From: Metabacillus endolithicus
Lineage (GTDB): Bacteria; Bacillota; Bacilli; Bacillales; Bacillaceae
Assembly: GCF_023078335.1 (NCBI RefSeq)
Contig: NZ_CP095550.1
Span: forward strand, 3,578,001 to 3,642,000
DNA length: 64,000 nucleotides
Direction: 5' to 3'
Position 1 is the first letter of the stretch. Each line of letters opens with the position of its first letter. A program made the position numbers and the translations under genes. Below, one piece after another: positions 20,409 through 33,705 of this stretch. The notes beneath the pieces were generated by a model. That model did not search any database, had not been told where the DNA came from, and saw only the letters and a program-made list of their open reading frames with translations.

Positions 20409-20582
20409 ATTGCACAAAAATTGCACAGACTTAATTTATTTACTTGTTTTTAATTAACTTATTCAACAACCACAAACCAAAAACGTTGATATATCAATAC
20501 TTATTTAACTCAATTCTATTACATTTAACTCTATTAATTCCCCACCTAATTTGACAGGGTAGGGGTCGGGGGTTCGAATCCC
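20409..20582 (+). repeat. Direct repeat, copy A, ending in a tRNA T-arm-like sequence
   Basis: This 174-bp block recurs at 33531-33705 in the same orientation with close to 90% identity judged by eye. Both start ATTGCACAAAAATTGCAC and end with GTCGGGGGTTCGAATCCC, which has the 7-base TTCGAAT loop and flanking G/C stem of a tRNA T-arm; similarity stops right after it. Conserved 3' tRNA ends are standard attachment sites of tyrosine integrases. No complete tRNA and no integrase gene are present here. Confidence 0.75.
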
Positions 20583-20958
20583 ACTCGGAATGGTCTAATG
20601 AAGTAACATTGAAATCTATACAAGAGGGATTAAATATTTTAGTAAGTAAATAGTTTTGTTTCTATGGTGTGAGTAATGAGCTTCACCTACACTAGATTTA
20701 GTATGAAAGTAAACATAGAGAGAGCTCTAATGAATGAAGTGCTATATAAAGCAGAAATAAATTCATTTTGAAAATATCTATCCTTTTTGTGGTGATAAAA
20801 TAAATAAAAGCAATATTCAGTTAAACTGAAATATTGCTTTTTGCTATATATCAAATTAGATTAAATATAAAATCTTTATTTTGTTATCATAAAGCTATTT
20901 AAATACACTGTATTTATTAATACAATTAAAATAGCACATACTGATGAGGTGATATCTT
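20583..20958. other. Intergenic region with a stem-loop, no gene recognised
   Basis: AT-rich. It holds an orphan terminator-like hairpin at 20806-20843 and a promoter-like region for the AraC gene at 20959. I see no coding sequence that the 20806 hairpin would terminate. Confidence 0.5.
20806..20843 (+). terminator. Terminator-like hairpin without an obvious gene
   Basis: AAAAGCAATATT-CAGTT pairs with AACTG-AAATATTGCTTTT, followed by further T residues. It may mark the end of a gene lost from the island border. Confidence 0.6.
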
Positions 20959-21894
20959 TTGATAAGTACAAATGAATTATTATCAGGTAAAACGGCCTTG
21001 AACAAATATCTTCATCATGTATCACATCATGAAATCTCTTTTCATGTCCATTATTGGGGTGTAATGCCAAATCATTATAATACTTTGTTCCATAAACATT
21101 CTTTCTACGAAGTATGTTTTGTAGTGGACGGTGAAGGTGAATATATTGAAAATGATTCAACTTTCAAGTTACAAAAAAATAAATTATTTCTTTCAAGACC
21201 TGATGTTTTACATCAAATAAAGAGTGAAAATGGATTATTCCTTATTTATATAGGATTTGAACTAATAGAGTCAAAGTCTAGTGATAAGTGGATAGAGACT
21301 ATGAAGCAAATTGAGAAATGCAACGAGATCGTAATTGATGTTGAAGAAGGGGCATCTTTCGTGCTGCTATGGGAATCGTTGCTTTCTCAGGCATCAAAAA
21401 GTGATCATCTCTACTTTGAAGAAATACTTGTAAACACAGCTTATTCTTTGATTCTTTCTATACTGGAAAGGTTTAGCCGAATGGTTGTTAGAAGTTCAAC
21501 TAAAAAAGAATTAGAAAAAAATACATCACCAATTCTAGCTCAAGCTATTCTGTATATTCAAAATAATCTATCAGATAACTTAAAACATAGTGATATTGTG
21601 AAGCATTTGCATATTTCTGCTCGACACTTAACTAGGCTTTTCGTAAAAGAGCTAGGAATGAGTTATACAGAGTATGTAAAGAATGAAAGGATTCAAAAAG
21701 CAGCTTTGCTCCTTAAAACGACAAACTTAAGTATAAAAGAAATTAGCGAAAAAACAGGATTTAAGAATGTTCATTACTTTACTCGTGTTTTTGCAACAAC
21801 AGTTAGACATCCTCCTGGTATTTTTCGAATGCTTTATACTAATCAAGAACATCTAACTTATTCAGAGAATGAGAAACCTTCACGTCCAGAGTGA
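20959..21894 (+). CDS. AraC-family regulator with cupin-type sensor domain (left flank of sugar cluster)
   Basis: 311 aa. The N-terminal cupin-like arabinose-binding domain (about 25-150) contains HKHSFYEVCFVVDGEGEYI. The C-terminal AraC HTH pair (about 205-300) ends in TGFKNVHYFTRVF. Start TTG 20959 with GAGGTGAT upstream. It is a close paralogue of the regulator at 32064, and the two bracket the sugar cluster. The second HTH ends VRHPPGIFR where family members usually have G.SPG.FR, a small deviation. It probably activates the isomerase/dehydrogenase/transporter genes downstream (inference). Confidence 0.87.
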   Translation: MISTNELLSGKTALNKYLHHVSHHEISFHVHYWGVMPNHYNTLFHKHSFYEVCFVVDGEGEYIENDSTFKLQKNKLFLSRPDVLHQIKSENGLFLIYIGFELIESKSSDKWIETMKQIEKCNEIVIDVEEGASFVLLWESLLSQASKSDHLYFEEILVNTAYSLILSILERFSRMVVRSSTKKELEKNTSPILAQAILYIQNNLSDNLKHSDIVKHLHISARHLTRLFVKELGMSYTEYVKNERIQKAALLLKTTNLSIKEISEKTGFKNVHYFTRVFATTVRHPPGIFRMLYTNQEHLTYSENEKPSRPE

Positions 21895-22396
21895 GCTTTT
21901 CTTCATTAATAAAGTAATCATTTAATAATATAAATGTATTACAAGTGTGCAGACAAGTTTCAAGACCAATGACCCACTACACACCTGGAGTAGATCTGTC
22001 AGTTGGGTTTTGAATTATATCAAGGTAAATAATGTCCTTAAAGTATAAAAAATTGTCTATTTTTTGCAAATACAAATATCCACTACCTGTATATAATTAT
22101 ATTAGAAGTGATGAAGATTATCTTTTTTTACAACCGAATGATAACGATTACAAAGTTGATATTGCAAGGTTTTCATTTGTTAGTTGTAAAAAGAGGTGTA
22201 TATATGAGTTTATACCTTTTTTAAAAGTTAACGATTTTCATATCTAGATAATAAGGGAAGGGGGTAGATTTTAGTTTCATTAAAACATAAAAATGTCATT
22301 TGATATTGTTATAAATCAATAATCAAACGGGGTTAGATTTTAATTAGTTATTTTCTTAGTTTCTTAATTTATTATCTTTTAGGAGGAATAGATAGG
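21895..22396. other. 502-bp regulatory region with perfect cre match
   Basis: No convincing gene. A 71-codon open frame (22032-22247) lacks a good ribosome binding site and similarity. The cre box at 22139-22152 and the ribosome binding site of the isomerase gene (AGGAGGAA near 22382) are the recognisable elements. Confidence 0.5.
22139..22152. promoter_or_regulatory. cre site (CcpA), perfect consensus match
   Basis: TGATAACGATTACA matches TGWNANCGNTNWCA at every defined position. The identical 14-mer recurs at 27955-27968 ahead of the ABC transporter of the same cluster, implying common catabolite repression. Confidence 0.65.
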
Positions 22397-23373
22397 ATGA
22401 AAACTGGTTTAGTTACGGATATTCTTGGATACATGTCATTTGAAGAAATGCTCGATACTTGTGTTGAGAATGGAATAGAAACACTAGAGTTAGGCTGTGG
22501 AAATTGGTCAAAAGCACCACATGTAAATTTAGATCTTTTACTTGAAAATTCGGTTGAAAGACAAAAGTTCCTAAATTCAATTAAAAGTATAGGACTAGAA
22601 ATTGCTGCATTAAACTGTTCTGGTAATCAGTTAGAACCAACAGAACAGGGAGAGGCTCATAAAGAAGTTGTGGAGAAAACATTCCGACTTGCAGGACTTT
22701 TAGGAGTAGAAACAATTGTCATGATGTCTGGTTGCCTAGTGGTGGTCCAAATGATGTGACACCAAATTGGTTAACACACCCTATTTTACCTGAACACTTT
22801 AAAACATTGGATTGGCAGTGGAATGAAGTGGCTTTTCCATATTGGGAGAAGGCAGTAAAAGTTGCGAAAGAATACGGTGTCAAAAAGATAGCTATTGAAA
22901 ATCTAGGATGTAATCTTGTTCATAACCCAGAAACTTTATTTAAATTAAGAAATGAAGTAGGAAATATGGTAGGAATGAACTTAGATCCAAGTCATTTATT
23001 CTGGATGGGCGGAGATCCTATCTTAGCTGCAAGGGAATTAGGAGAGGCTATTCATCATGTACATGCAAAAGATGTTCGAATTGAAAGAGGAATTAATGAC
23101 ATTAATGGTTTAATTGATGTGAAACCAATGGAAAGCTTCGCAACTCGTTCTTGGAATTATGTAGCTCTAGGTTACGGACATGACATTGGTTATTGGAAGG
23201 AGTTCTTCACTGTTGTTAAGATGATGGGTTATCAAGGACCAATTGTTCTAGAAATGGAAGACTTAACAATGGAACCCCTTACAGGAGTTAAGAAATCTAT
23301 GGATGTATTAAAGCAAGCTTTACCTAGAGATTTTAAAAGGACTAACTCAAGCAATTATACACTTGTTAAATAA
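22397..23373 (+). pseudogene. Sugar phosphate isomerase/epimerase (xylose isomerase-like TIM barrel), one frameshift
   Basis: Joined across one lost base the protein is about 325 aa. It belongs to the AP-endonuclease-2/xylose-isomerase-like fold used in inositol and rare-sugar pathways (IolE, IolI, IolH type). Metal ligands expected for the fold are visible: Glu in IAIENLG, Asp/His in MNLDPSHLFW, His in VHAKDV and Glu in VLEMEDL. The break is at 22735-22736, where GGTTGCCTAGTGG should read with one more C to give SGCPSGGPND. Start ATG 22397 with AGGAGGAATAG. It is followed after 19 bp by the IolG-like dehydrogenase, so they form an operon. The exact substrate is unknown. Confidence 0.8.
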
Positions 23374-23392
23374 TTGAGGAGGTATGTATAGT

Positions 23393-32990: not shown

Positions 32991-33042
32991 AGAACTATTA
33001 TCATAAATAAAGACAATGTAACGGTGAGATGTTGCTAAGCCA

Positions 33043-33077
33043 AAAAGGAGGTAGTCGAGTTGCTGCCTTCTTTTGTG
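33043..33077 (+). terminator. Terminator after AraC regulator
   Basis: A 12-bp stem with two G-T pairs (33043-33054 with 33063-33074), followed by T residues. Confidence 0.7.
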
Positions 33078-33152
33078 CGCTTGTCAGCTGTTTGGACTTG
33101 TAAGTGATTATATTGATGTGTTCACTTTCGTAAGTATGTGATCAATTTTATA

Positions 33153-33208
33153 GAAATCTCTTAGTCGATCATGTGGTAGTAGCGATAAGAGGTTTCTTCC
33201 TTTTTTTA
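33153..33208 (+). terminator. Second terminator-like hairpin
   Basis: GAAATCTCTTA (33153-33163) pairs with TAAGAGGTTTC (33186-33196), followed by a long T run. No gene lies between it and the previous terminator. Confidence 0.6.
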
Positions 33209-33530
33209 ATGCGAGTATTGGTATTTTTCCCGTTTCTTGGTGATAACTATTGTTGATTCATTCACAGAGCTTTTGTACGTACTGATGAATACCAGAGTAA
33301 TGTGAGCGAGAATAAAATGTTCAACATTGGTACTAATCAAATAGTCAAATTATCAGTACTGATATATTGTACTTGAACTGAACCTAGTTGAACATAGCAG
33401 TTTGTAATTGACCTTAGAGGTTTTTCATTGCTTAAAGTAAGGGTACTAGCTATACATATTGTTTAGGTAGGCTAACTTTTATCATTATTTCTTATTTACA
33501 CTAAGTTTAACAAAATATTTGATTACACCA

Positions 33531-33705
33531 ATTGCACAAAAATTGCACAGACTTAATTTATTTCATTGAATTCTATTAACTTATTTTACAACCACAAGCT
33601 AAAAACGTTGATTTATCAATACTTATTTAACTCAGTTTTATTACATTTAACTCTATTAATTCCTCACCCAATTTTGATAGGGGAGAGGTCGGGGGTTCGA
33701 ATCCC
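33531..33705 (+). repeat. Direct repeat, copy B, ending in a tRNA T-arm-like sequence
   Basis: Second copy of the 174-bp block at 20409-20582, same orientation. It ends GGTCGGGGGTTCGAATCCC, after which the two copies diverge. About 13.1 kb separate the copies. A strong terminator follows immediately. Confidence 0.75.

Follow-up and report, generated by a model that had tools for sequence, protein, structure and literature searches.

The window analysed here, the 64,000-nucleotide stretch G000:C1:3578001-3642000 of the 5.3-Mb genome of Metabacillus endolithicus, contains a 13-kb sugar and cyclitol gene cluster enclosed by two direct repeats, and the region to which this cluster belongs is very probably an array of integrative elements arranged in tandem at a tRNA-Val(GAC) gene, in its 3' half. 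The intact tRNA-Val(GAC) gene (C1:3568476-3568547) lies outside the window, 9.5 kb to its left, and is followed in a row by slot 1 (30 kb), repeat copy A, slot 2 (13 kb), and repeat copy B. Slot 1 extends over C1:3568548-3598408, its start lying 9.5 kb left of the window and its right part corresponding to window positions 1..20408. Slot 2, the sugar/cyclitol cluster, occupies 20590..33530, and neither slot as a whole is assigned a strand. Since the tRNA-Val and a stub of an integrase gene are located outside the window, the 13-kb cluster, which an earlier note on this DNA had treated as an island by itself, is instead slot 2 of a larger array.

Copy A (20408-20589) and copy B (33530-33712) match in the same orientation with 89% identity over 174 bp and a spacing of 13,122-13,123 bp, so that the two direct copies of about 174 bp, 13.1 kb apart, that the earlier note had placed around the cluster are indeed present. 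In each copy, a ~142-bp arm is joined to tRNA-Val(GAC) sequence that begins in the anticodon loop and represents the 3' half of the gene. In copy A, the P-arm-like arm (20409..20550, plus strand) contains TTGCACA motifs at 20410 and 20421, and the core (20551..20589, plus strand) corresponds to tRNA-Val(GAC) bases 31-69 with 97% identity, being changed beyond base 69. In copy B, the arm (33531..33672, plus strand) contains the motifs at 33532 and 33543, and the core (33674..33715, plus strand) corresponds to bases 31-72 with 90% identity. GGGGGTTCGAATCCC is present in both copies and forms the best-kept part of the tRNA-derived core. The attachment core of tyrosine-integrase type recognised in the earlier note is tRNA-derived, as is the T-arm-like end, but the tRNA part is longer than described there and starts in the anticodon loop. 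The DNA directly upstream of A and of B is unrelated (without gaps, 25.0% of positions are identical over 20 bp, 30.0% over 60 bp, and 26.7% over 120 bp). A repeat search of the own genome yields nine matches, namely both copies, the 3' half of tRNA-Val (100% over 32 bp), and six of 32 bp at 88%, of which the five examined all fall in tRNA-Gly(GCC) genes. The arm of A is 90.1% identical to that of the relative G015 and 89.4% to that of B, and the arm of B is 94.4% identical to that of G015, in a weakly supported tree. A local duplication of the repeat is disfavoured because each copy finds its closer counterpart in another genome, by a narrow margin for A.

Directly behind the tRNA-Val, on the opposite strand, a frame of 75 codons encodes the C-terminal part of a tyrosine integrase, and no working integrase gene accompanies the genome's own tRNA-Val beyond this frame. 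An intact relative of the stub, with 412 aa, is situated behind the tRNA-Val of G006, a genome of the same genus. The G006 enzyme contains Pfam Phage_integrase, Phage_int_SAM_3, and Arm-DNA-bind_4, and hence carries both arm-binding and catalytic domains. An integrase stub 92% identical to G006 lies behind arm and core in G003, and an integrase fragment 55% identical to the G006 enzyme follows an arm and core in G272. In the own genome, a search with 57 aa of the stub found no close intact integrase; its two further matches were a frame of 380 codons on C2, at 39% over 50 residues, and one of 299 codons, at 41% over 42 residues. The integrase search returned 17 viral contigs at 23-33% identity and, across 17 loci, one close genome contig, which is identical to G006. 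Of the 40 open reading frames (ORFs) of at least 90 aa in slots 1 and 2, 36 were scanned (10 with NCBIfam and 26 with Pfam), and none matched integrase, relaxase, conjugation, or phage families. With the stub beside the tRNA-Val counted apart, the scanned ORFs of the slots thus present the absence of integrase and transfer genes that defines a cis-mobilizable element (CIME). The relaxase or conjugation genes and integrase that an integrative and conjugative element (ICE) or an integrative and mobilizable element (IME) would carry are not among them. The intact tRNA on one side and the repeat of its 3' part on the other give the region the bounds of a tRNA island. Upstream of the intact integrase of G006 (contig C53), an inverted stretch resembling the arm, with GTGTGCACA motifs and a core like that of tRNA-Ala, is also observed at L190:3467-3527.

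In relatives, the same locus is occupied by other islands. Left of the tRNA-Val lie genes common to relatives, the gene at window position -10733 being present in 8 of the 9 other genomes compared. The right border of the variable region is formed by DNA at 34201..37348 (no strand assigned), where the sequence shared with G002 begins at 34201 (95.6% identity over 3.15 kb) and that shared with G015 at 34226 (91.9% over 1.76 kb). From border to border, the locus measures 43.7 kb in G000, ~52 kb in G002, and ~62 kb in G015. With largely different islands of about 44, 52, and 62 kb at one tRNA-Val, this locus emerges as a main site for the gain and loss of sugar and aromatic catabolism. In G002, the tRNA-Val leads directly into a sugar module, which constitutes an empty site for a 9,289-bp element that is filled in G015, where the sugar module (97.4% identical to G002 over 18.7 kb) is 9,289 bp away from the tRNA-Val. 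The G015 element encodes an intact 369-aa integrase and repeats 48 bp of the tRNA at its far end. The sugar module ends in an arm in G015 (slot 2), G003 (slot 3), and G008 (slot 2, after a 27-kb interruption), and a partial arm is left at its end in G002 (slot 1). Similar cassettes fill different slots in different genomes. The third slot of G003 (within G003:C1:1345000-1380150) begins with a TerC gene, which is border DNA in G000, G002, and G015, and also contains a CotF-like/alcohol dehydrogenase set located left of the tRNA-Val in the same three genomes; this content is either rearranged or captured flank.

The arm, counted from 100 aligned bases upwards, occurs in 12 of the 21 genomes of the genus, the own genome included, and also in G024 of another genus, to which G014 adds a 123-bp copy. 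Arm and tRNA-Val core share one contig in 11 genomes (G006, G020, and the second copy of G011, with the arm on other contigs, stand outside this count), and in nine of them, G000, G001, G002, G003, G004, G008, G011, G012, and G015, the arm follows the tRNA and runs in its direction. In G012, the 3' part of the tRNA-Val was found alone. The 16 arms that were aligned are alike over most of their length. The TTGCACA motif was counted in 37 attachment (att) sites, each taken from 250 bp upstream of tRNA base 1 to 330 bp downstream of it, without the core, and all 28 exact matches fall into one of two intervals relative to that base, -113 to -99 and +166 to +177. On the arm side (-113 to -99), at least one exact motif exists in 12 of 16 sites; on the integrase side (+166 to +177), six sites possess it, namely those of G000, G006, G003, G008, G012, and G020. 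The double motif TTGCACA-N4-TTGCACA occurs 13 times in the 21 genomes, compared with no occurrence of the reversed control, and 11 of these 13 are att sites by place and sequence. Nine lie in arms, one lies beside the intact G006 integrase, one in G013 looks from its sequence like an integrase side, and two lie in coding sequence (G007 and G017) that we take by eye to be ispF. In an order-wide search of 397 genomes, 33 match the arm, mostly over short lengths (22-50 bp) that perhaps reflect chance; beyond the own genus, the analysis covered genus g66 and, briefly, the sequence of G390. The arm is absent from the plasmid and phage collections searched, and its exact pattern was found in none of the viral contigs searched. 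In G020 (contig C280), the arm starts at 1787 and its end and core are at 8984-9053, the arm apparently being interrupted by ~7 kb.

The same plan is repeated at another tRNA in genus g66, which belongs to another family. Here, the arm contains GTGCACA and the core is derived from tRNA-Ala(GGC), and 7 of 21 genomes carry arms of 100 bp or more. In G171, the tRNA-Ala is followed by a 14.1-kb slot, arm and core, an 11.4-kb slot, and a further arm and core, 25,507 bp in all. G294 and G467 possess an empty tRNA-Ala site where G171 holds these two arm-bounded islands. G467 equals G171 up to the tRNA and continues from the tRNA core on as G171 does from its last core on (87% over 5.2 kb), and G294 matches likewise, in pieces. 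The first slot of G171 encodes an alpha-amylase, two GH31 enzymes, an ABC sugar transporter, and a ROK regulator, and the second contains a molybdopterin oxidoreductase set. No integrase, relaxase, or phage family was matched in the 16 scanned of the 17 ORFs of at least 90 aa in these slots, a set in which one 855-aa ORF spans two loci, and tblastn with three integrases gave no match in G171. At the left slot ends, the nearest ORFs begin 46 and 78 bp past the core. G468 unites a 340-codon integrase frame, GTGCACA, arm, and core within ~1.6 kb behind the tRNA-Ala.

Some slots of this genus contain sequence that resembles host flank. The left ends of the G171 sugar slot and of a slot in G472 (L297, L251-L252, and L295-L296) resemble the downstream flank of the tRNA-Ala in G294 over ~120 bp at 86%, as if, judging by the sequence, the cassettes in G171 and G472 had taken host flanking DNA along. 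In G462 (C2, L294), arm and core are situated ~1.6 kb behind the tRNA-Ala, separated from it by a native flank gene, an alpha/beta hydrolase by eye, which suggests chromosomal DNA bounded like a cassette. In G472 (C1:542500-579700, L295-L296), the tRNA-Ala is followed by a 16-kb slot that encodes an integrase of its own (396 aa) and a DNA methyltransferase-like protein (by eye), and the next slot, of 21 kb and apparently for sugar use, ends in an arm.

The sequences establish the anatomy of the array, with its arm, core, stub, and borders, as well as the precise insertion of comparable islands in relatives; the integrase that moved slot 2 and the order of events may be inferred from them as follows, in a scheme consistent with phage-type tyrosine integration. 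An attP composed of arm, core, and integrase side would recombine with the tRNA by means of a tyrosine integrase. After integration, the left end would consist of tRNA, core, and integrase side, and the new right end would carry the arm and the tRNA 3' half. Repeated docking would then stack islands behind the tRNA. In the own strain, the integrase would have decayed to its C-terminal stub, and slots 1 and 2 would remain as CIME-like islands. Slots 1 and 2 jointly possess both an arm side and an integrase side, whereas slot 2 alone has two arm-side sites. Because the integrase-side motif is kept solely behind the tRNA-Val, excision from tRNA to A or from tRNA to B is formally possible with a helper, while the combination of A with B lacks that side. 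A helper integrase might still excise slots 1 and 2, but hardly slot 2 alone.

Several observations weigh against an array of this kind. The GC contents of slot 1 (34.4%) and slot 2 (34.8%) are unremarkable relative to the flanks (37.0% and 35.1%). The integrase-side motif is missing at both A and B, and an empty site for slot 2 itself, which the earlier note had proposed to seek, was found in none of the relatives compared; the clean pairs of empty and filled sites concern other islands (G002 with G015, and G294 and G467 with G171). The integrase of the G015 element is 36% identical to that of G006, and the element has no arm of this family, so that the pair of G002 and G015 illustrates the action of the site and not that of the arm. 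In G005 and G014, the arm is opposite in orientation to the tRNA-Val. The g66 integrase frame paired with an arm, at 340 codons, is shorter than its 412-aa relative. Furthermore, the first half of slot 2 is present in G016 ~21 kb left of TerC, where no att site was detected and the tRNA-Val is on another contig.

Three other explanations of the repeats were compared with the tandem array. If slots 1 and 2 had arrived as one composite element, copy A would be an internal relic. The integrase stub and the integrase-side motif, kept on the tRNA side alone, and the formally complete unit that the two slots make up are consistent with such an arrival, but A and B are each closer to the G015 copy than to each other, with the narrow margin for A and the weak tree noted above, and similar cassettes occur in different slots among genomes; we regard it as rather improbable, and a composite arrival would still be a tandem array that merely moved as one. 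That slot 2 alone is an excisable 13-kb island with A and B as attachment sites, the strong form of what the earlier note had proposed, is very unlikely. The direct repeats with tRNA-type cores do flank the cluster, and the pair of G171 slots, bounded by arm-side sites and devoid of a recognised integrase, is precisely inserted. However, both ends of slot 2 are arm-side (right-end) sites and lack the integrase-side motif, which makes excision of slot 2 alone doubtful; the closest intact frame for an integrase in this genome reaches only 39% over 50 residues, and core A departs from the tRNA beyond base 69. A formerly mobile region with no integrase of its own is what stands of that proposal, and the excisable 13-kb unit is supported only in part, given its arm-side ends and the lack of a close intact integrase and of an empty site. 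A dispersed or regulatory non-coding repeat with no role in recombination is extremely improbable. Short arm fragments do exist elsewhere, for example 65 bp in G016 (C29), and most of the 33 matching genomes of the order have short matches only. Yet the own genome has two long copies, both tied to tRNA-Val cores, the distance of the motif from the core is constant on either side, and a second tRNA shows the plan again, with an altered motif and a related integrase. The dispersed family that the earlier note had named as a possible objection was rejected by the arm searches in the own genome, the genus, and the order, the copies of relatives being mostly downstream of the tRNA-Val.

Beyond the tandem array itself, a wider and less probable reading can be offered tentatively, in which Bacillales would possess a platform of integrase-less metabolic cassettes of 10-50 kb with a standard ~142-bp arm, gathered behind a tRNA in trans by an integrase clade. 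The motif would shift with the clade and the tRNA (TTGCACA at tRNA-Val, GTGCACA at tRNA-Ala), and cassettes would form even from the chromosome's own tRNA-flanking DNA. Integrase-less islands are usually explained by loss of the integration module after integration. The G171 slots fit this account less well because no remnant of a module is present at their left ends, and they leave room for cassettes that have an arm-side site only and are moved in trans. The platform as a whole, at first quite unlikely, became somewhat less so because the G171 cassettes, starting 46 and 78 bp behind the core, offer no room there for a lost integrase and are precise in an otherwise empty site.

Tycheposons are likewise tRNA-anchored islands that bear cargo. 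The array described here is clearly a new example of a known way of gene collection, the tandem accretion of integrase-less, CIME-like islands. As outlined in PMC5704250, an ICE or IME decays to a CIME, and another element then docks at the att site of the CIME. The ICESt1-related islands of Streptococcus treated there are alike in that integration genes are lost, att ends are kept, and further docking takes place at the target gene. Unlike those islands as portrayed in that source, the present ones involve tRNA-Val(GAC), Metabacillus, a cargo of sugar and aromatic catabolism, and a slot 2 lacking the integrase-side arm. The tandem ssrA islands of Dehalococcoides, 15 of which lack an integration module according to PMC3146451, similarly form a row behind an RNA gene, are bounded by repeats of its 3' end, and carry strain-specific catabolic cargo. 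In that account, a serine recombinase module sits at ssrA and the repeat spans 20 bp, with a 15-bp motif, whereas here the target is tRNA-Val, the integrase is of the tyrosine type, and the repeat comprises a ~142-bp arm and 39-42 bp of tRNA. Elements dependent on helpers are the subject of PMC11389934, which names tycheposons; the clusters of attC sites lacking integron-integrases (CALINs) mentioned there resemble the present islands as integrase-less cassette rows that may move in trans, but differ from the 10-50-kb cassettes at a tRNA gene found here. A limited literature search found no description of an array of this kind in Metabacillus. The many natural copies of one arm, together with related integrases at two tRNA targets, make two questions testable, namely the joint change of arm sites and integrase and the precise placement of integrase-less islands.

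Between copy B and the right border, a remnant occupies 33716..34200 (no strand assigned). The terminator that the earlier note had placed next to copy B is present as a palindromic terminator-like stretch on the plus strand (33712..33777), which has the 16-mer AACGTTGATATATCAA in common with the arm of copy A. Within the remnant, 33923-34121 is 80% identical to a stretch within the G015 array, apparently reads by eye like the end of a PfkB-type sugar kinase gene, and is perhaps the last trace of a third slot. A third GGGTTCGAATTCC, noted earlier near 34160, is located at 34159..34171 on the plus strand as a possible old core. Its likeness to the 3' end of tRNA-Glu (seen in G005) is by eye about equal to that of tRNA-Val, and for this reason it counts only as a possible tRNA-Val attR. 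In 1,274,316 bases, 34 of the 35 matches of GGGTTCGAATYCC are in tRNA genes or tRNA-Val cores, the exception being 34159-34171; these bases are stretches chosen for holding such sites, and the control consists of the absence of other stray GGGTTCGAATYCC matches.

The genes of slot 2 are those named in the earlier note, several of them being split into overlapping ORFs, and all are encoded on the plus strand. An AraC-type regulator (20959..21894) is followed by an IolE-like isomerase/dehydratase in two ORFs (22397..23373), the first without a family match, an IolG-type inositol dehydrogenase (23384..24418; NF052679, above cut-off), a sugar porter of the major facilitator superfamily (24476..25879; TIGR00879), and a Gfo/Idh/MocA oxidoreductase (26388..27620). 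The ABC transporter consists of a sugar-binding protein (28195..29160; Peripla_BP_4), an ATPase in three ORFs (29235..30872), of which the second and third were scanned, and a permease in two ORFs (30823..31828; BPD_transp_2). A second AraC-type regulator (32064..32990) shares 55-56% identity with the first. Slot 1 has the character of 4-hydroxyphenylacetate-type and amine catabolism, with regulators and a permease. It encodes a HAD phosphatase, a MarR fragment, a tyrosyl-tRNA synthetase, a sodium symporter, CHMI, two FAA hydrolases, regulators, a DHDPS family protein, three aldehyde dehydrogenases, HpaB, a ring-cleavage dioxygenase, a flavin reductase, a FAD synthetase, an aminotransferase, a split amine oxidase (16253-18072), and a permease. 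Split overlapping ORFs also exist in an FtsZ-like flank gene (L010:5857-7034) that is whole in G015 and G002, and sequencing indels are therefore possible, so that decay of the cargo is not claimed; the split genes (22397-23373, 29235-31828, 16253-18072, and the FtsZ-like gene) possibly represent either real decay or indels of a long-read assembly.

In the stretches of the nine genomes compared, no relative of at least 60% identity exists for any of the 40 ORFs in the two slots, and the matches of 45-56% are AraC and ABC proteins. The earlier note had considered that all relatives might carry the cluster, which is not so; among the matches listed, IolG with at least 80% identity occurs in 2 of 80 genomes of the family, G000 and G016. 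Two genomes outside those nine differ: nucleotide identity between G016 and window positions 20971-25880 is 82-85%, save one piece at 73%, and G006 contains a 201-bp piece that resembles window positions 33088-33287 at 89%.

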